A DNA stretch of 64,000 nt from Candidatus Thiodiazotropha sp. (ex Myrtea sp. 'scaly one' KF741663) (lineage in GTDB: Bacteria > Pseudomonadota > Gammaproteobacteria > Chromatiales > Chromatiaceae), in the NCBI GenBank assembly GCA_025655555.1, contig JAHXIQ010000001.1, forward strand, positions 372,001 through 436,000, read 5' to 3'. A program made the translations under genes and the position numbers. Of this stretch, positions 6,042 to 41,221 are shown piece after piece. Below the pieces are notes generated by a model. It was not told the origin of the DNA, did no database searches, and was given only the letters and a program-made list of their open reading frames with translations. How positions within the stretch are numbered: the stretch's first letter is position 1; each line of letters starts with the position of its first letter.

Positions 6042-6165
6042 CGTTCTCTCCAGATCTTTTGGTCCGCCAAGTGGCAAGGACCGGATGGATGTTGCCGGAA
6101 AACAGCAGCCGTTGGGTCAGTCTGTGACCGTTTAGACTACTGTTTCCGACGTTCCATTATCAATA

Positions 6166-6181
6166 TGCAAAACCCGGGCCT
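6166..6181 (-). promoter_or_regulatory. Sigma-54-type promoter of fliDST
   Basis: On the minus strand the sequence AGGCCCGGGTTTTGCA gives GG-N10-GC spacing with TTTTGC at the -12 element, close to TGGCAC-N5-TTGCA. It lies about 125 bp upstream of the fliD start and just past the flaG stop. The match is to the known consensus; transcription from it is inferred. Confidence 0.65.
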
Positions 6182-6191
6182 GAAAATCGTC

Positions 6192-6647
6192 TCAGGCCTG
6201 AGTTTCCATTAACAGACCCACCGGCTGATCCTGCATGCCTTTCCCTGCAACTTTAGCACTCTCTGCTTCCATCAGCTCCTTCATGTGTCTCGCTAGGGAG
6301 AGCACCTCTTCTGAAGGGATCTGACGGATCACATCGCCGGAGTCTTTGTCGAGTACGCGGACAACCGTTTTGCCCGAGTCATCATCGACATCGAATTGCA
6401 GTTGACGACTCATCACCTGAGCAAAATCCTTCATCTGCTCGACTGCCGCTTTCACATCCTCTTTGGAAACCGTGGATGATGACTGGACAGCCTGTGAGGA
6501 GCCGGAGGCATGAGCTGAACGGATCGGCGAGACCTGTGCCACACCCGGCTGGGGAGTGACCGATTGGTTTGCATCGACCCGACGGCTCTCTCTGCCAAGA
6601 TCCTTAGCCGCTTGAGTACTTAATGTGATCGTCATGTCGTTAGTCAT
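6192..6647 (-). CDS. flaG: FlaG family protein
   Basis: FlaG proteins limit or modulate filament length in polar flagellates and are usually encoded between flagellin and fliD, as here. The 151-residue product has a variable, Ser/Gln-rich N-terminal half and a conserved C-terminal FlaG domain: LQFDVDDDSGKTVVRVLDKDSGDVIRQIPSEEVLSLARHM (about residues 90-128), with the diagnostic V(L)D...G(E/D)VIRQIP motif. The first ATG is used; a second in-frame ATG four codons later is equally possible. The biochemical role of FlaG is not known. Confidence 0.93.
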   Translation of the reverse strand: MTNDMTITLSTQAAKDLGRESRRVDANQSVTPQPGVAQVSPIRSAHASGSSQAVQSSSTVSKEDVKAAVEQMKDFAQVMSRQLQFDVDDDSGKTVVRVLDKDSGDVIRQIPSEEVLSLARHMKELMEAESAKVAGKGMQDQPVGLLMETQA

Positions 6648-6670
6648 GGCCGTTCACCTCTCATGTTTTT

Positions 6671-6700
6671 GATAGTGTCCGGGCGAACCCGGACACTATC
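6671..6700 (-). terminator. Strong hairpin after flagellin gene
   Basis: A perfect 13-bp stem with a four-base loop (TTCG on the transcribed strand) lies 14 bp past the flagellin stop. On the minus strand it is followed by an A-run, not a T-run, so it is more likely an mRNA-stabilising or attenuating structure than a standard intrinsic terminator. It would let flagellin mRNA exceed flaG mRNA. Confidence 0.6.
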
Positions 6701-6713
6701 TGGCTAGGACCAA

Positions 6714-8180
6714 TTACTGCAGGAGTGACAGGACCAACTGAGGCTGCGCATTCGCCTGACTCAGCATGGCCACGCCGGCCTGTTGCAGGATCTGCGTACG
6801 TGTCAGGTTGGATGTCTCAGCCGCAAAGTCGGCGTCCTGTACCCGTGAACGGGCCGCGGAGACATTCTCACTGATACTGGACAGATTGGCGATGGTGGAT
6901 TCCAGACGATTCTGGATGGCACCGAGATCGGCACGTGCGTCTGAGATAGACCGCAGGGCCTGATCCAAAACATCCAATGCGTTATTGGAACCACTCTGGG
7001 TACCGATGTCCACGTCTGCCACAGAGCTCAGAGCACTACTGGTGCTGGCCGCACCCATCACGGTCGTACCGGTATCGGTAGCAACCACGAAGGATTTGGA
7101 AGAACTGAAGCTTAATGTACCACCGACAACGATACTGTCTGCCGCACCACCTTCAGTCAAGGTCGTACCGCCTACATCAAGAGTTTCGGTAGCGGTGGAG
7201 TGAGCCAAGTCAACCACGTTGATGTCATGACCCGTGGAATTTTCCAGTGTAATGGATGCACTATCCGCGGCCAGAACAGCCGAGACGCCAGTAGAAGCAG
7301 AGACTGCGTTGATAGCATCTGCTAATGCTGAGTAGTCAGTGGTGGTAATTGCTGCAGAAACAGCGATGGCTGAACCAACAGTACCCGCTGCATTGGAGCT
7401 GGAGAGTGTGAAGCCTACCGTACCAGCAACAGCCAAACCGTCAACAACCACAGAGTTGGAAGCAGTGGCGGTTACGCCAGTGGTACCCGATGCACCATTA
7501 ATCAATGTAGCAATATCGCTGGCGGCATCATCAAGTGAAACAGCCAGTGCTCCAGATGACGCAGTACCGTTAACGGTAAGATTCTGTGCAGCTACATTGT
7601 TACCACCGGCTGCGTCGGCAACAGCAGTCAGAGCGCCACCCACATGGGTGTTGGCAGAGATAGCTTGGTTACCGAGGCTGGTTGCACGAATGCTGGTCAC
7701 GGTGACAGAGATGGTCTCGTTGGCATTGGCGCCCACGTGAAATTTCTGTGCTGAGAAAGAACCATCAAGAATCTTCTTGCCGTTGAAGGTAGAAGTATCG
7801 GCGATACGGTTCAATTCCTGCTGCAGCTGAGAGACCTCTTTCTGCAGATTAGCGCGGTCAGCCGAGCTGTTGGAGTCATTGGCAGACTGAATTGACAGTT
7901 CACGCATACGTTGCAGGATGTTGGTTGCTTCCTGCATGGAGCCTTCAGCAGTCTGCGACAGAGAGATGGCGTCGCCCGCGTTACGGATCGCCTGATTCAG
8001 GCCACGAACCTGAGAGGTCATACGGTCGGTGATACCCAGGCCGGCAGCATCGTCTTTCGCACTGTTGATGCGAAGGCCGGTAGAGAGGCGTTCCATGGAG
8101 GTTGAGAGGGAAGATTGGGTGTTGGTCAAGGAACGTTGTGTCGTCATCGACATTACGTTGGTATTGATTACCATTGCCAT
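6714..8180 (-). CDS. fliC: Flagellin
   Basis: The filament subunit, 488 residues. The conserved N-terminal D0/D1 part ([18 protein letters not shown], then [20 protein letters not shown], to about residue 165) and C-terminal D1/D0 part (about 405-488, ending in LSLLQ) form the filament core. The central 230 residues are rich in Ala, Thr, Ser and Val with few charged residues, as expected for surface-exposed D2/D3 domains that vary between strains. A strong AGGAG ribosome-binding site precedes the ATG and a sigma-28 promoter lies at 8290-8316. It is the only flagellin in this window. Confidence 0.98.
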
Positions 8181-9592: not shown

Positions 9593-11539
9593 CTACCTCC
9601 TGACCGCGCTGATCAGTGTATCGAACAGGGTATTCGCCGCCGAGATGATCTGCGCAGAGGCCTGATAGGCTTGTTGGAACTGGATCAGCTTGGCAGCCTC
9701 TTCGTCCAGGTTCACACCGGAGACCTCCTGCATTGCCTCCCGCGTACGGTTTAACAGACTCTCCTGAGCCGACAGATTGAGCTCTGCATGATGGGTCTTG
9801 GAACCCACATCCGACACCATCTGGGCATAGGTTTCATCGTAGGTGGCGGTACCGCCACGCAGTCTGTCCATGGTCTGCAGATCCACCAGGCCCAAGGCAT
9901 TGCGATTATCACTGGTACCGCTGGTATTGTTCGCAAAGAGAAAGGTATCACCATCAGCGGGCGCACCGGAGATGGAGAAACTGATGCCGCCAAAAGCGTC
10001 AAATTGTGTCGGATTGGCGGTGGTTGGATAATTTACGCCGATGATTACCGCCGGATCAGTCGCATCATAAGCGATGAAATTATCCGGCGCCCCCGGGCCA
10101 TTGACGATGTCGAAGCCGCCTGCCGCAGCGTTATAGACCAACTGCATATCCGCCGCCAGGGGCAATCCGGTGGTGCTGCTGTTGGCCGGCTGGGTGATCC
10201 TGGCGTCACCGGTGTTCAGCGCATTACCTGCGGCATCCGTCGCCGGTCGAAGCTGTAACGGACTGGCCGCCGCCAGGCGGCGTGAATCACTGACCAGCAG
10301 ATCGAGACTTGCGGCAGCGTTGCGGGTGGGTTGGATCAGGAAGGTGTCGCCGGCAACCGCCCCCAACCCATTAATGTTGATATCGAGCCCGTCAACCGTA
10401 TTCAAGCCTGCCGCAAGCGTCTGGTTCGATCCATCGGAGAGATTCTCCAGGATGAAATCCGTACCGTTATAGAGCAGCTGATAGTCGTTTGCGGTGAGAT
10501 TGCCGATATCGTTGTATGTCACTGTGATCGAACTGCCGTTGCCGGGTGGCTCCAGCACATCGACGGTTCCCGAAGCGAAAAGCGCAGTACCGGCCAACCC
10601 ATCCAGATCGAGTCCCAACTGATGCTGAGCATTGAGGTCGTTGGCAAGTCCCAGGGCCACCAGACCGACTTGGTTCTGTGCCGGATCCAGTATCTCCTCA
10701 CGATACCTGAGCAAGCCGCCAATCTTGCCGCCGCTGATCTGATCGGTGACGATCTGTGTGCCGAAGGAGAAATTAAAGGCAATCTCAAGATGTGTAGGAT
10801 CGAGTGCAGAGGGTTGGGTCGTCATCGTGGCGGCATCATAGGCCATCACCAACGGCTGCCCCTTACCGATAAAGACGTTGTAGGCGCCATCGCTCTGCTG
10901 CAACACCTGAATATCGACTAATTCGGAGAGATCATTGACCAGCTGATCCCGCTTATCCAGCAGATCATTGGGCGCGCTGCCGTAGGCGATCTTGATATCA
11001 TTGTTGATCGTTGCGATATCTTCCGCCAGACGATTGATCTCGGTGATGGAGGCATTGATCTGCTCGTTGAGGGTGCTACGCGCTGACTCGAACTGCCGGT
11101 CGAAATAGTGAAAACGATCGACCATCGATTCACCTTCCGCCAACACCAGCTGGCGTGCTGACACCGAGGCAGGATCATCCGCCAGCGCCTGCAACGCATT
11201 GAAAAAGTTCTGCACGGTAGGCTGGAGGCCCACATCCGGATCAGCCACCAGATCATCCAGCTGGCGGGCACCGTCAAAATAGGCCTGTAATTCCGATGTC
11301 ACCGACTGACTGGCACGGACTTGTGAAGAGATAAATTGATCATACTGTCGCGTGACAGCAGAGGTCTCCACCCCATTTCCCAGATATCCAATACCTGTGA
11401 AGTCAGGTTGTCTTGTGACAAAGTCCACCCGCTGACGGCTGTAACCCTCGGTATTGACGTTGGCGATGTTGTGTCCGGTGGTGTCCAGCGCCTGCCGGTT
11501 GGCAGTGAGGGCTGAGACACCGATGGATAGTATGCTCAC
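9593..11539 (-). CDS. flgK: Hook-filament junction protein FlgK (HAP1)
   Basis: FlgK is the first junction protein placed on the completed hook. At 648 residues it is longer than enteric FlgK (about 550), the extra length lying in the variable middle (about 340-550), where two sections resemble each other in style (LLYNGTDFILEN and LVYNAAAGGFDIVNG with following FLIQP/FLFANN), suggesting duplicated surface domains. The N-terminus MSILSIGVSALTANRQALDTTGHNIANVNTEGYSRQRV and C-terminus VNLDEEAAKLIQFQQAYQASAQIISAANTLFDTLI are canonical. It lies 35 bp downstream of flgJ. Confidence 0.97.
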   Translation of the reverse strand: MSILSIGVSALTANRQALDTTGHNIANVNTEGYSRQRVDFVTRQPDFTGIGYLGNGVETSAVTRQYDQFISSQVRASQSVTSELQAYFDGARQLDDLVADPDVGLQPTVQNFFNALQALADDPASVSARQLVLAEGESMVDRFHYFDRQFESARSTLNEQINASITEINRLAEDIATINNDIKIAYGSAPNDLLDKRDQLVNDLSELVDIQVLQQSDGAYNVFIGKGQPLVMAYDAATMTTQPSALDPTHLEIAFNFSFGTQIVTDQISGGKIGGLLRYREEILDPAQNQVGLVALGLANDLNAQHQLGLDLDGLAGTALFASGTVDVLEPPGNGSSITVTYNDIGNLTANDYQLLYNGTDFILENLSDGSNQTLAAGLNTVDGLDININGLGAVAGDTFLIQPTRNAAASLDLLVSDSRRLAAASPLQLRPATDAAGNALNTGDARITQPANSSTTGLPLAADMQLVYNAAAGGFDIVNGPGAPDNFIAYDATDPAVIIGVNYPTTANPTQFDAFGGISFSISGAPADGDTFLFANNTSGTSDNRNALGLVDLQTMDRLRGGTATYDETYAQMVSDVGSKTHHAELNLSAQESLLNRTREAMQEVSGVNLDEEAAKLIQFQQAYQASAQIISAANTLFDTLISAVRR

Positions 11540-32866: not shown

Positions 32867-33832
32867 CTACTCGTCCAGTGCGCCACCACAGCTGCTGCCC
32901 TGTCCCGCAGTACAGCCAAAGCAGTGTTCAGCCACCCGAATCGGTGCTGCCGATAAATCGCTGTCGAGAAGGTCTCTCAGGTGCGGGTGGACTTTGTTCT
33001 CATGACCCAGCGGTATTTTCAACATCTGATTGAAGTCGCAATCATAGACATAACCCTGCCAATCCACACTCAACAACTGCCGGCACATCACACCATCCAG
33101 GTTTTCGGGTCTATAAGAATCGCGCAGAAGCTGAAGATAATCCTGGAACTTCCCCTTAGATTGCAACAGGCTGCCAAAACGTTGAATTGGCATATTGGTG
33201 ATTGTGAACAGCTGGTTGAATTGAATGCCGAACCGCTCATCAAGCTGCTTTCTGTAGTCTGCCTCAAGTGGACCCTGGGGCGGTGGTAGACTGGGTCCGG
33301 TAGGGTTATAGACCAGATTGAGTTGCAGAGGTGACTCAAGTGAACCGTACCCAAGCTGGTTGAGTCGCTTCAGGCCCTCAATGCTGTCATGGTAGGTCCC
33401 CTTACCACGCTGGCTGTCAACATTCTCTTCCAGATAGCATGGCAGGGAGGCAACAACTTCCACCTCATGTGCTGCCAGAAACTCCGCCAAATCCTCCTGT
33501 CCCGGCTCCAGCAGGATAGTCAGATTACAGCGGTCGATAACATGCACACCCATCCCCGCTGCAGCTTCTACCAGATAACGGAAATCCCGATTCAATTCAG
33601 GCGCCCCACCGGTCAGGTCCAGCGTTTTTAACTGATGATTCCTTAGAAAACGCAGCACCACATCGATTGTCTCCCGGCTCATCTCTTCCGAACGCTTGGG
33701 ACCGGCATTGACGTGACAGTGGACACAAGAGAGGTTACAGCGATAACCGAGATTCACTTGTAGCGTTTCAAGCTTTCCTCGATGAATGGCGGGAAAGCTG
33801 GTTGGCTGTAAGAGATGAGCGGTATCGATCAT
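32867..33832 (-). CDS. arsS: Arsenosugar biosynthesis radical SAM protein ArsS
   Basis: The 321-residue protein has the radical-SAM cluster motif CNLSCVHC (about 33-40) after LETLQVNLGYR, and GGAPEL as the SAM-binding GGE-equivalent. The ArsS C-terminal domain has several further cysteines (GVMCRQLLSVDWQGYVYDCDF and CFGCTAGQGSSCGGAL), probably for auxiliary clusters. ArsS is proposed to link dimethylarsenic to the 5'-deoxyadenosyl/ribose moiety. The arsenic methyltransferase ArsM, which normally makes the substrate, is not present in this window. Confidence 0.93.
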   Translation of the reverse strand: MIDTAHLLQPTSFPAIHRGKLETLQVNLGYRCNLSCVHCHVNAGPKRSEEMSRETIDVVLRFLRNHQLKTLDLTGGAPELNRDFRYLVEAAAGMGVHVIDRCNLTILLEPGQEDLAEFLAAHEVEVVASLPCYLEENVDSQRGKGTYHDSIEGLKRLNQLGYGSLESPLQLNLVYNPTGPSLPPPQGPLEADYRKQLDERFGIQFNQLFTITNMPIQRFGSLLQSKGKFQDYLQLLRDSYRPENLDGVMCRQLLSVDWQGYVYDCDFNQMLKIPLGHENKVHPHLRDLLDSDLSAAPIRVAEHCFGCTAGQGSSCGGALDE

Positions 33833-34443: not shown

Positions 34444-34496
34444 GCCCTCGTAGCTCAGCAGGATAGAGCAATCGCCTCCTAAGCGATAGGTCACAG
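34444..34496 (+). repeat. attL: Left attachment site: 53-bp 5' fragment of tRNA-Arg(CCT)
   Basis: These 53 bp are identical to the first 53 bases of the intact tRNA-Arg at 41145-41197, covering the acceptor 5' strand, D arm, anticodon arm and variable loop, and then diverge. The T arm and 3' acceptor strand are missing. Together with the right copy it brackets an AT-rich segment with an integrase at its left end, so it is read as the left att site. Confidence 0.92.
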
Positions 34497-37641: not shown

Positions 37642-38481
37642 TCAAGATCTTACTTGTACTTGCTCTCCTTGATTATTCAAGTAGTTTGAGATCAACAGCT
37701 CTGTAGTTTCTTTTCTGCAGTTAGAATCTGAAGCTATAACACTATTCCTGTTAACGACTACCCTTCTCCATATCCTCCTACTATATAACTTATGTATACT
37801 AGGATGATCGGCGTTCGATATTAAGACCCTAGCACCTGCACAAGCCGCTTCATATGCGCAATCAGCCAATCTTTCTTGATCCCTCCAAGAGAATATTGTT
37901 TCATTGTATTTCACAAAGTTATTCATATTGTGTTTTACAGTATATGGTGGATCAATAAAAACAAAGTCTTTTGCCCCAGCCTTTCTCAAGGAAGCTGAGA
38001 AGTCCTGGTATTCAATAGTGGCCTTTTGAAGATACGCAGACATTCTAATAAAATCATCAGATTCCATTATTACTGAGTTTTTCGTTCCCTTTGGCACATT
38101 GAATTTACCATTCAAGTTAACGCGGTAAAGCCCATTGAAACAAGTTCTATTTAAATATATAAACCTCGACGCTTTACTAGCAGACGTTCTTGGTGATTGA
38201 TCTCGAATCTTATAGTAGTAATTATTTTCTGAATTGTGTTTCCTCTGATGGGATTTCAATTGCTGTATAACTTTTTCCGGCTGATCTCTTATCACTAAAT
38301 ACGCATTTATCAATTCTTCATTTAAATCGGCTATGATGGCTTTTTTTGGATCAAGAGAAAAAAATACCGCGCCACCCCCTAAAAACGGTTCAATATATCT
38401 TTCAGCCTCTGTATAGATACAATCCTTATAATTTGATACAAGCCATCTCTTACCACCAGCCCACTTCAAAAACGGTTGCAT
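37642..38481 (-). CDS. D12-class adenine-specific DNA methyltransferase (Dam-like)
   Basis: The 279-residue protein starts MQPFLKWAGGKRWL, with motif I (AGGKRWL) and the catalytic motif IV as DPPYTVKHNMNN (about 178-189). IEPFLGGGAVFF and FIYLNRTCFNGLYRVN are typical of alpha-class N6-adenine methylases such as Dam and M.DpnII, which act on GATC-like sites. The ATG chosen has AGGGA 8 bp upstream; a start at 38499 overlapping the upstream gene is possible. It follows the PD-(D/E)XK-DGQHR gene by about 10 bp, so the two are probably co-translated as a modification/nuclease pair. Confidence 0.92.
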   Translation of the reverse strand: MQPFLKWAGGKRWLVSNYKDCIYTEAERYIEPFLGGGAVFFSLDPKKAIIADLNEELINAYLVIRDQPEKVIQQLKSHQRKHNSENNYYYKIRDQSPRTSASKASRFIYLNRTCFNGLYRVNLNGKFNVPKGTKNSVIMESDDFIRMSAYLQKATIEYQDFSASLRKAGAKDFVFIDPPYTVKHNMNNFVKYNETIFSWRDQERLADCAYEAACAGARVLISNADHPSIHKLYSRRIWRRVVVNRNSVIASDSNCRKETTELLISNYLNNQGEQVQVRS

Positions 38482-38491
38482 TTCAAATTCC

Positions 38492-40807
38492 CTAGACATC
38501 TTTATTACTATCCATTTGATCAACGCGTCGCATGAATTCATCGTATATGTAATCTATAAAATCATAATCTGATGATTTGTAGTGCCTTTTTTCCGTTGAA
38601 TGTGCTGGGATCCTCCTCAGCTCATTAACTCTCTCCATCCACATTACGTTCTTTGAGTAACCTTTATCTCCAGGCATTGGAATGTCAAATATTGGTTTAA
38701 ACAACTGCCAATGAGCCTTATTCTCAACTATTTTTTTATACTCGATAAAATCCAAATAGTTATCTAAAGATAGGCGATCCTCATCATCATCTTCTAGTGA
38801 TTTTTCGTATGCCCTTGTTTTAATTTTTTTATCTATTACTCCTTTATTCCAGTACGCATCTCCTTCCACTCCATATTCTCTCTTAAATGTATCAAATATT
38901 GCCTTTTGTACATTTATGTTTAATTCCTTTAATTTTTTGTCTGCTTCTGTGACTCTTTCTTCTGATTGCTCTGACAACCACTCTTCAAATCCCTCTGGCG
39001 AGAAATCTGAAAACTCGCTATGAAGCATTTTGCATAGTCTAAAGTAATACTCAGGCGGCCCCCCTGAACCAAACTGCACTTTAAATCGTTTTTCAATTTC
39101 AATATTAGATGCAGTTGCTAACCAACTTATTATTGGATCAAGGTATTCTTCAATCTCTGCAATTAGCTCATTCGATTCAAGCTCTCTCGCATCCAGTCCC
39201 TTATTTGATTCCATATAGCTAATAACAGAAGCTAACAATTGCAAATAGGCTTGAAGAGACACATTGGTACATAAATGCCCCTTTCTTCCAAATTCCCACT
39301 GATCTATATTCGAACTTACCAACAGCTGCAAATAACTGTTTATCGTCGCCCTGGCTCTTTCAAGAGTTTCCATATCGGATACACCGCACAGCGGTCCTGG
39401 CGAATACTCTTTCTTATTTAGTATTGCCTTTCCAACAATACCTGACTTTCGAATACCATCTTTGAGTGCTGGGACAGTAAGGCATGTCTTTTCATTTGGA
39501 GTTATGCCTTGCTGAGTAACTCTCCCATAAAGAGGCTCTCCTAAGTCATTATTCAATAGCCCAATAAGACGCGCGCTAATAGCGCCCACTCTTTCAGTAG
39601 GTTTATCTGATCCCCACTTAAGTTCACCTTCTAGATCGTCTAAAAGCGTTTTGGGAACAGATTTTTGTTCATGATTTATCGTAACAAAAAGATTCGCTTC
39701 CTCTTCTTTTTTAAGTCCTTCAAAAGCTATGACCATAATATTTTGATTAAGGTACTCTTCGTCTAGTGGCGCATAACCATATAGCCGATGTTGTCCATCA
39801 ATTATCCATGCAGATCTATAGCTTGACGGAAGGTATAAATTCCCAAACTGAACTTTCGTATCTGGGTCTTTAGTTATAGGGTCAAAACGTCTTTTCGTAG
39901 TAAAATTAACCAAAATATTTGTTGGAAAAAAACCGCCATTATAAATAAAGCGGGATATCTGCCTTAGCCTAGTTCTACTGACTAATCGTTGATATGAAGG
40001 AGCACCCGCAGGGTCATTAAGAGATCGATGATTAACAAATGATATCTTCAACATTTGCTTAGGTGTTGAAACAAATGAATAGTATGTTTTACCACCCAAC
40101 TTACCTTTTACGGCAGGAACATAGACATTCTCTAATTCTGGTATTTTTTGATTACACAAGAACTCCGCAAGAAACTGAAACCTCGCAGCACCCCTCAAAT
40201 GATCAGCGATTTGAATATAGTACCTAAGTTCCTTCTCAGTGATTATTCTTATATTTGAACCGGCCGCTCTTTGCTTATCTGTTCCTGACCAAACTATGTT
40301 GTTAGTAACAAAAAGCCAGATAATCTTTGGCTTAAATTCCTTGCCATAATATTTTTTTATCGAATTAGATATTGGGCCCTTTAGGCTCGAAAATTCTTCA
40401 ATATCCTTTTGAAGACTACGTCGCGAGGGTTTTGAGGCTGACTTACATTCGGCTACGACAACTGTTTCATCATCTTTAGCAAAAACATCAATTTGTTTCT
40501 CAAATGGATCTGCGCCTTTCCGGTGAATGGCGATTTTAAAATTTCGACCTGAGCTTATATCTGGATAGCCAAGAAGATAGAAAAGATACCAAACTGTGTT
40601 TTCTAGTTTTTGATCATGCGACCACTCCTTTCGCATACGCGTTTTTATTTTTAATTCCTTATCAACTTGCCATCCCTCACTAAGATAATCCTGAGCTAGC
40701 GCTTTAGATACTGATACATATTGAAATGGTTTTTTTCTTGATACTGCCTCTCGTTGTTTTTTCTTTAATTCATTCGTAATTGGACCCAACCATTCCGTAG
40801 TCGACAT
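38492..40807 (-). CDS. PD-(D/E)XK nuclease-like and DGQHR-domain fusion protein
   Basis: The 771-residue protein has an N-terminal restriction-endonuclease-like part. LENTVWYLFYLLGYPDI (68-84) is followed by QIDVFAKDDETVVVAECKSA, giving D107 and E120-x-K122 as the PD-(D/E)XK triad. A DGQHR domain follows, with WIIDGQHRLYGYAP (337-341 for DGQHR) and NHEQKSVPKTLL, as in DndB-type proteins of DNA modification systems. The C-terminal 400 residues are helical and not recognised. The combination of nuclease fold and DGQHR with an adjoining adenine methylase suggests a restriction or methylation-sensing defence system. It is AT-rich, unlike the host. Confidence 0.8.
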   Translation of the reverse strand: MSTTEWLGPITNELKKKQREAVSRKKPFQYVSVSKALAQDYLSEGWQVDKELKIKTRMRKEWSHDQKLENTVWYLFYLLGYPDISSGRNFKIAIHRKGADPFEKQIDVFAKDDETVVVAECKSASKPSRRSLQKDIEEFSSLKGPISNSIKKYYGKEFKPKIIWLFVTNNIVWSGTDKQRAAGSNIRIITEKELRYYIQIADHLRGAARFQFLAEFLCNQKIPELENVYVPAVKGKLGGKTYYSFVSTPKQMLKISFVNHRSLNDPAGAPSYQRLVSRTRLRQISRFIYNGGFFPTNILVNFTTKRRFDPITKDPDTKVQFGNLYLPSSYRSAWIIDGQHRLYGYAPLDEEYLNQNIMVIAFEGLKKEEEANLFVTINHEQKSVPKTLLDDLEGELKWGSDKPTERVGAISARLIGLLNNDLGEPLYGRVTQQGITPNEKTCLTVPALKDGIRKSGIVGKAILNKKEYSPGPLCGVSDMETLERARATINSYLQLLVSSNIDQWEFGRKGHLCTNVSLQAYLQLLASVISYMESNKGLDARELESNELIAEIEEYLDPIISWLATASNIEIEKRFKVQFGSGGPPEYYFRLCKMLHSEFSDFSPEGFEEWLSEQSEERVTEADKKLKELNINVQKAIFDTFKREYGVEGDAYWNKGVIDKKIKTRAYEKSLEDDDEDRLSLDNYLDFIEYKKIVENKAHWQLFKPIFDIPMPGDKGYSKNVMWMERVNELRRIPAHSTEKRHYKSSDYDFIDYIYDEFMRRVDQMDSNKDV

Positions 40808-41144: not shown

Positions 41145-41221
41145 GCCCTCGTAGCTCAGCAGGATAGAGCAATCGCCTCCTAAGCGATAGGTCACAGGTT
41201 CGACTCCTGTCGAGGGCGCCA
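41145..41221 (+). tRNA. tRNA-Arg (anticodon CCT)
   Basis: A complete 77-nt cloverleaf can be folded: acceptor GCCCTCG/CGAGGGC, D arm GCTC..GAGC, anticodon stem ATCGC/GCGAT with loop CTCCTAA (anticodon CCT), T arm ACAGG-TTCGACT-CCTGT, discriminator G and encoded CCA. It reads the rare AGG arginine codon. Its first 53 bases come from the element side of the integration, and its last 24 from the host. The original promoter is at the other end of the element. Confidence 0.97.

Follow-up and report, generated by a model that had tools for sequence, protein, structure and literature searches.

A gene pair in the DNA analysed here, 64,000 nucleotides (nt) of Candidatus Thiodiazotropha sp. (ex Myrtea sp. 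'scaly one' KF741663) (assembly GCA_025655555.1, contig JAHXIQ010000001.1, positions 372,001-436,000; hereafter the window), is conserved in distant relatives and probably represents an apparently undescribed form of modification-linked restriction with an unusual effector. One gene encodes a Dam-family D12 N6-adenine DNA methylase, the other a protein of 771 amino acids (aa) whose layout, by sequence and structure prediction, is PD-(D/E)XK nuclease, DGQHR domain resembling the ParB/Srx nucleoside triphosphatases (NTPases), and probable HEPN domain. On balance we read the pair as a two-gene restriction-modification-like defence system carried on a small integrative element, with presumed activities and a presumed role against phages.

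The original prediction had placed a nuclease triad (D107, E120-x-K122) and a DGQHR motif at residues 337-341 of the larger protein, and the sequence bears out both. TIGR03187 (DGQHR) matches residues 232-528 at 138 bits (E=5e-40, cut-off 58.85) and PF14072 (DndB) matches at 43 bits (E=4e-11, cut-off 29.1), which makes the effector a member of the DGQHR/DndB family. The motifs given for DGQHR domains, which are related to the ParB/Srx NTPase and nuclease fold, are QR, DGQHR and FxxxN (PMC4619093; this and the other papers cited were covered in part, and what we say of them holds for those parts). Conservation was counted over 80 alignment rows: R274, DGQHR, F374 and N378 occur in 80/80 and Q273 in 79/80.

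The N-terminal domain has a predicted nuclease fold. An AlphaFold2 model of the effector, built on a 62-row alignment (A4, leaving out 17 of the 79 rows of A3, mostly for size; A3 itself excludes proteins shorter than 720 aa), has a mean predicted local distance difference test score (pLDDT) of 88.7, and its residues 64-189 run helix, strands, helix, strand in the manner of a PD-(D/E)XK core that carries the triad, with D107 in a turn between strands and both E120 and K122 on a long strand (115-129). The best Foldseek matches are Cdn1 (E=9.5e-4), VC1899 (E=1.5e-3), AF1548 (E=0.027) and Card1 (E=0.033), the Cdn1 and VC1899 chains being ones that we take to have this fold; McrC and Hjc appear lower in the list and are not significant. 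Among 62 family members scanned with Pfam at E<=0.1, 60 match DndB, 15 Hjc (best 4e-4), 13 Card1_endonuc (best 3.2e-6) and 11 HEPN_Swt1 (best 1.6e-5), followed by a tail of unrelated families with one or two members each. Searches against solved structures gave a single chance-like match (E=0.77) for the effector sequence and none at 0.1 for the 62-row profile.

For the C-terminal part the original prediction had seen no known relatives, and this did not hold up. When 80 C-terminal fragments were scanned with Pfam (E<=0.1), HEPN_Swt1 matched 26 of them (best 8.9e-7), Abi_2 11 (best 0.009) and HEPN_Apea four. The region bears the motif N-x2-R-x4-H, whose R/H pair stands in 79/80 rows (as RNIAAH in ten), and residues 592-771, modelled by themselves, come out almost wholly helical (pLDDT 92.9). 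A C-terminal profile run against solved structures (E<=1) hit a synthase (0.3) and HepS (0.62), which is presumably a HEPN toxin and which aligned across the R-x4-H motif. Judged by the motif and the weak-to-moderate Pfam matches in relatives, the C-terminus is a probable, not a proven, Swt1-like HEPN RNase.

The identity of the smaller gene as a D12 methylase with AGGKRWL and DPPY motifs was confirmed by PF02086 (E=7.5e-55, 186.8 bits against a cut-off of 22) and TIGR00571 dam (249.6 bits against 114.85); these matches and the motifs AGGKRWL, FLGGG and DPPY (DPPYT at 197-201) mark it as a Dam-family enzyme, and the nearest solved structure is DpnM (2dpm, E=7e-51). Residues N136, R140, N142, N148, V149 and P150 of the D12 recognition loop are invariant in 59/59 sequences and are the same in DpnM. 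Read against what we take to be the contact residues of EcoDam, this loop predicts that the target is probably GATC or a closely related site. The element holds 35 GATC sites where base composition predicts about 23, a count that says nothing by itself. This is the one Dam-family gene in the host genome (98.7% complete); an orphan Dam role for it was considered and rejected because the link to the effector is conserved. The two minus-strand frames are as originally described, while the spacing of about 10 bp then given varies with the methylase start: ATG 38541 gives a 50-nt overlap, 38499 an 8-nt overlap and 38478 a 13-nt gap, and one of the latter two is the likely start. Overlaps of 4 and 8 nt are the commonest among relatives, with starts taken from the longest open reading frame (ORF).

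The pairing itself was surveyed in plasmids, viral contigs, genome contigs (the 80 of 318 most similar to the window) and genome samples. This gave 92 loci, 89 of them distinct (L061, L085 and L093 repeat the effectors of L015, L017 and L018; L044 and L051, from genome G533, stand outside the 92). A D12 or MT-A70 methylase lies within 1 kb on either strand in 76/92 loci, or 73/89 distinct ones; the 76 include a doubtful case, L082, with a truncated effector frame and a D12 fragment about 0.9 kb off on the other strand. L076 carries a divergent D12 enzyme, which brings the total with an N6-adenine methylase within 1 kb to 74/89 distinct loci. Three distinct loci (L055, L126, L127) are cut off or unclear, and L126 is not part of the 74: its N6_N4-type methylase is encoded on the opposite strand, 1.2 kb off, at the end of a contig. 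In the genome samples a D12 methylase adjoins all 6/6 non-self full-length matches (G201, G398, G521, G533, G884 and G1021, that of G533 spread over two contigs). The control set of short DGQHR proteins comprised 36 loci, two of them lacking a DGQHR frame, and showed a D12 or MT-A70 methylase within 1 kb in 2/34, both near-copies; some of the 34 are near-copies and several of their flanks extend for about 1 kb or less.

Effector and D12 distances also correlate (r=0.59, n=59, with 0/2000 permutations as high). A same-strand D12 gene within 600 nt lies downstream of the effector in 54 loci and upstream in 11, so the pairing survives swaps of gene order. By record titles the family is spread over many bacterial phyla and archaea; in the host genome this effector is the only DGQHR protein. 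The concern, raised with the original prediction, that homologues might mostly lack a methylase is thus answered by 74/89 distinct loci, a set chosen for likeness to the window, and by 6/6 genome-sample matches. The further question, whether the partner is always a D12 enzyme, has a mixed answer: an N6-adenine methylase is present at most loci, and MT-A70 in 6 loci and a radical-SAM cluster in 12 are the departures from D12.

We also note some peculiar loci: (i) In L036 and L037 a D12 methylase lies no more than 0.5 kb from a short DGQHR frame of 392 aa, perhaps a minimal form of the system or one that has been split. (ii) In L016 a single effector gene is flanked by two different D12 methylases (7044-7820 and 10288-11196). 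(iii) L098 and L146 are apparently decayed, the first with a frame that lacks the usual C-terminal motif and the second with an in-frame TAG, and a D12 methylase still adjoins both.

The state of the nuclease triad differs between partner types, in rows that are not phylogenetically independent. The triad is intact in 60/68 methylase-linked rows (59/67 without L126) versus 1/11 radical-SAM rows; by partner type the full D-E-K set is found in 55/61 D12 rows, 3/5 MT-A70 rows, 0/9 rows with radical SAM and HATPase and 1/2 rows with B12-type radical SAM, and K122 is present in 61/80 rows overall. The six altered D12 rows comprise L043, with K to R only, and L059, L066, L072, L077 and L106, altered at two positions; the two altered MT-A70 rows, L078 and L080, have K to R only. 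A Fisher test on these counts (60/8 vs 1/10) is descriptive only, because the nine rows with radical SAM and ATPase form one clade. DGQHR is kept in 80/80 rows and the HEPN R/H pair in 79/80. Since eight of the 68 methylase-linked rows have an altered triad and a retained HEPN motif, DNA cutting is unlikely to be the sole activity of the effector, which qualifies the original idea of a new modification-based defence pair: its pairing and nuclease fold are now supported, and we still infer the defence role. The DGQHR switch and HEPN domain seem to form a constant core, judged from these motifs, with the DNA nuclease dispensable in some lineages.

Methylases of different families serve as partner. 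MT-A70 replaces D12 in six loci; its identity is clear, from PF05063 (E from 1e-26 to 4e-31 in six proteins) and, for L080, from a PADLOC Type II methylase match (1e-83). Going by the family names, what the methylase branches would have in common is a methyl mark on adenine. The partner label needs 10 changes on a quick maximum-likelihood tree of 80 rows, and MT-A70 accounts for at least four, likewise when well-supported forks alone are used; this tree has Shimodaira-Hasegawa-like approximate likelihood ratio test (SH-aLRT) support only, leaves 23 of its 77 forks open, contains some long branches and excludes proteins shorter than 700 aa. Radical SAM with HATPase is one clade of nine and B12-type radical SAM appears twice (its B12-binding matches are below the cut-off). 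The tree is unrooted and for that reason does not show the direction of exchange.

In 12/89 loci (L002, L003, L021, L115, L116, L118, L119, L120, L122, L123, L125 and L130) a radical-SAM gene stands in the cluster instead of a methylase, not always as the immediate neighbour of the long DGQHR gene. These calls rest partly on record annotation, the three proteins scanned having scored 20.8, 17 and 21.6 bits against a Pfam cut-off of 29.5. Ten of the clusters pair the radical-SAM gene with an Hsp90-like HATPase (L002:10215-18079, L003:4188-14576, and L115, L116, L118, L119, L120, L123, L125 and L130), and those of L002, L003 and L130 add a short DGQHR protein, a PIN_8-type protein and a second HATPase. 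Where they could be aligned, the long DGQHR proteins of these clusters have T, M or R in place of the nuclease lysine. The PADLOC matches of five L002 proteins include no matching system. The cluster may possibly encode a new kind of DNA modification. In L021, with a B12-type radical-SAM partner, an HSDR_N_2 nuclease-type protein (PF13588, 2.4e-11; 6131-6898) lies about 1 kb upstream of the long DGQHR gene.

A broader interpretation, which we put forward tentatively and regard as less than probable, is that the family is a widespread and so far undescribed self/non-self class: one PD-(D/E)XK - DGQHR - HEPN reader-effector would work with interchangeable modules (D12, MT-A70, or radical SAM with Hsp90-like ATPases, sometimes with a second DGQHR protein), DGQHR would be a general reader of marks, the radical-SAM modules may install a new DNA mark, and the majority of radical-SAM versions, having lost the DNA nuclease, would act through RNA cleavage by HEPN. 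The same loci bear on a narrower proposal, in which the DGQHR protein assists or regulates the enzyme that makes the modification, in the way of DpdB, the ATPase for dPreQ0 insertion, or of the regulator DndB, and in which the nuclease and HEPN parts nick DNA or control expression. The precedent of DpdB as a ParB-like ATPase for base insertion (PMC12839542) and the PADLOC score of this DGQHR domain against DpdB lend it some plausibility, but a second, shorter DGQHR protein is present in at least four of the 12 radical-SAM loci (L002, L003, L122, L130), so that the long one could serve a different purpose. D12 and MT-A70 methylases, moreover, need no such helper, and we consider an accessory role very improbable.

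The defence system that we favour might operate as follows. The Dam-family methylase would place N6-methyladenine (m6A) on host DNA and so mark it as self, and the 771-aa protein would survey DNA. Its ParB/Srx-like DGQHR domain would bind and hydrolyse NTP and would tell self DNA by its methyl groups and let it go. DNA without the mark would be cut or nicked by the N-terminal PD-(D/E)XK domain, and the C-terminal HEPN domain would degrade RNA, perhaps tRNA, as a second and possibly suicidal arm. We infer what each protein does, that DGQHR serves as the reader of the mark, how the steps follow one another, and that the system acts against phages. Of the mechanisms already worked out, the nearest is that of DndI, a ParB-like protein with NTPase and nuclease activity: it nicks DNA lacking phosphorothioate (PT), lets go of self DNA when PT stimulates its ATP hydrolysis, and does harm where the mark is absent (PMC11662687); what we propose is by analogy a DndI-type scheme with m6A as the mark.

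Several observations weigh against this scheme or parts of it. The homologue survey favours D12-linked relatives because its best 80 of 318 genome contigs were picked by similarity to the window. The ParB-fold matches in Foldseek are weak (PadC E=0.65, BrxU E=0.47). HEPN matches in relatives are mostly weak, at an E<=0.1 limit that also passes unrelated families in one to three of 80 fragments; neither the window effector itself nor its C-terminal fragment has a HEPN match in Pfam, and the best Foldseek match to residues 592-771, the HEPN protein AbiF (TM score 0.44, E=4.6), is not significant. The eight methylase-linked rows with an altered triad keep their methylase all the same, and on the tree the association of triad with partner comes down to three pairs, on average 1.9 pointing the same way and none opposite, which is not significant.

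Gene order is a further difficulty, as placing the effector first is unusual for a self-toxic restriction enzyme. The 54 downstream against 11 upstream methylases would suit an effector that is harmless alone, as in a mark-activated arrangement, in which NTPase and nuclease would come on only if self DNA is methylated and the pair would work with no methylation but its own. SspE, also ParB-like, is silent and non-toxic without PT (PMC11662687). We judge such an SspE-like mode distinctly unlikely here.

The setting of the pair is that of a mobile element (Table 1). The original prediction of an AT-rich integrative element is borne out, and the element can now be delimited: it measures 6.7 kb, sits in tRNA-Arg(CCT), is bounded by a 53-bp exact direct repeat, encodes a tyrosine integrase, and has an interior GC content of 0.379 against 0.537 for the remaining window. 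Twelve same-genus genomes have the neighbouring SNase gene, and nine of these loci were compared. The tRNA-Arg(CCT) gene lies beside the SNase gene in 9/9, the integrase and DGQHR protein have no match in any of the nine, and the window's left-flank gene (32867-33832) is on the opposite side of the tRNA in 6/9, the arrangement expected of an empty site.

Table 1. Features of the element and domains of the effector, in window coordinates
Feature	Position	Strand	Evidence
attL, 53-bp exact copy of the 5' part of tRNA-Arg(CCT)	34444..34496	+	direct repeat, 100% over 53 nt
Tyrosine integrase, 329 aa	34570..35559	+	PF00589 E=2.8e-25; phrog_1 integrase E=1.9e-59
Hypothetical protein, 142 aa	35706..36134	-	ORF; Pfam scan without match at E<=1
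phrog_4756 phage-family protein, 466 aa	36200..37600	+	phrog_4756 E=6.8e-57
Dam-family D12 N6-adenine DNA methylase, 299 aa (longest ORF)	37642..38541	-	TIGR00571 E=4e-74; nearest PDB entry DpnM
Effector, PD-(D/E)XK - DGQHR - probable HEPN, 771 aa	38492..40807	-	ORF, profiles, models
HEPN-like C-terminal region, residues 592-771; R731-x4-H736 at 38600-38617	38495..39034	-	HEPN_Swt1 matches in relatives; R/H conservation
DGQHR (ParB/Srx-like) domain, residues 232-528; DGQHR 337-341 at 39785-39799	39224..40114	-	TIGR03187; conserved motifs
PD-(D/E)XK domain, residues ~64-190	40238..40618	-	predicted fold; Foldseek; Pfam in family members
Nuclease triad	D107 40487-40489, E120 40448-40450, K122 40442-40444	-	sequence (E120-C-K122)
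tRNA-Arg(CCT), integration target; first 53 nt (41145-41197) = attR	41145..41221	+	ARAGORN; repeat

A location between att repeats, together with the overlapping genes and the standing of HEPN domains as classic toxins (PMC3710099), would also fit an addiction module, in which the methylase is a DNA-marking antidote and the triple-domain protein a toxin to cells from which the element has gone, so that the 6.7-kb element is kept and phage defence is incidental. Near the loci of the family, however, a tyrosine integrase was detected at only 1/89 (by single-query seeds, a search too weak to count as absence), and with the spread over many phyla and archaea this argues that the family is not tied to one type of element. 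We think an addiction module unlikely as the main function, and it is not exclusive of restriction-type defence. Of the remaining element genes, the one for the phrog_4756 protein has a homologue in L052, the closest relative locus, where it likewise stands upstream of the pair, and the two may travel together; by eye, the 466-aa protein may resemble a polymerase-type palm protein.

Phosphorothioate and deazaguanine systems are where DGQHR proteins are best known, in the sources covered, their part there being that of a helper or regulator. The one described here has a predicted DNA nuclease on one side and a probable RNase on the other, and it is linked, in bacterial as well as archaeal members of the family, to ordinary adenine methylation. 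If our reading is true, this is a restriction-type system with DNA-cutting and RNA-cutting arms in one polypeptide. With m6A as an easy mark, the pair offers a way to test what the DGQHR domain does; the radical-SAM branch may point to a new DNA modification. A description of the pair was not found in the open literature searched, which took in few subscription papers and neither bioRxiv nor supplementary files. The theme of HEPN with ParB is already known, and the triple fusion, the methylase pairing and the partner exchange went unmentioned in that literature. Table 1 of a 2013 survey (PMC3710099) lists a Swt1-like HEPN fused to ParB, 'mostly active' (Saro_3948, probably our pNL1 homologue L002), and a HEPN, MAE_28990, in an operon with a ParB nuclease and a DNA methylase. 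Saro_3948 has a Swt1-class HEPN, a domain that is probable in our effector, joined as here to a ParB-fold domain, and the MAE_28990 loci have ParB, methylase and HEPN as separate genes; the entries compared, in the paper without its supplementary files, mention no N-terminal PD-(D/E)XK domain and no D12/MT-A70 or radical-SAM partners.

Membership in described systems was assessed and rejected in four cases. For the Dnd phosphorothioate system, DndB reached 19 bits against an equivalog cut-off of 328, and no DndC match was found in the 98.7%-complete host genome, in agreement with the earlier view of a system without dndCDE as far as DndC goes, dndD and dndE lying outside the search. For the Dpd deazaguanine system, DpdB reached 62.5 bits against an equivalog cut-off of 300, and no DpdA was found among the five element genes, the part of the genome searched for it. 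For PD-Lambda-5, the methylase matches PD-Lambda-5_B at 1.2e-12 and the effector matches no PD-Lambda-5 model. For the Type IV-like family of GmrSD, SspE and DndI, PF03235 was found in 1/62 members (E=0.016) and no HNH family in the Pfam results.

The nearest comparisons are with systems that share parts of this design. DndI, SspE and GmrSD/BrxU likewise fuse a ParB/Srx-type NTPase domain with a DGQ(H/Q)R motif to a nuclease and are linked to DNA modification (PMC4619093, PMC11662687), but they are DUF262 proteins with a C-terminal HNH nuclease, whereas the effector here belongs to the DGQHR/DndB family, has an N-terminal PD-(D/E)XK nuclease and an extra probable HEPN domain, and is partnered by an adenine methylase in place of the PT machinery. 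With DndB and DpdB it shares a DGQHR domain over the TIGR03187 cut-off (PADLOC DpdB E=1.9e-19), and it differs in its two fused nuclease-type domains and its methylase partner. The DUF499 BREX-related and Hma systems likewise have an adenine methylase, a PD-(D/E)XK nuclease and an ATPase fused to HEPN, a domain that is probable in our effector (PMC12839542), but have an AAA+ ATPase and a helicase, neither of which is among the genes of this element in Pfam and phrog scans. Orthodox Type II restriction-modification of the DpnII type shares the adjoining D12 methylase, here most like DpnM among solved structures, and the PD-(D/E)XK domain; the present system departs from it in the NTPase-like and probable HEPN domains, in the MT-A70 substitutes of six loci and in an effector gene that usually comes first.

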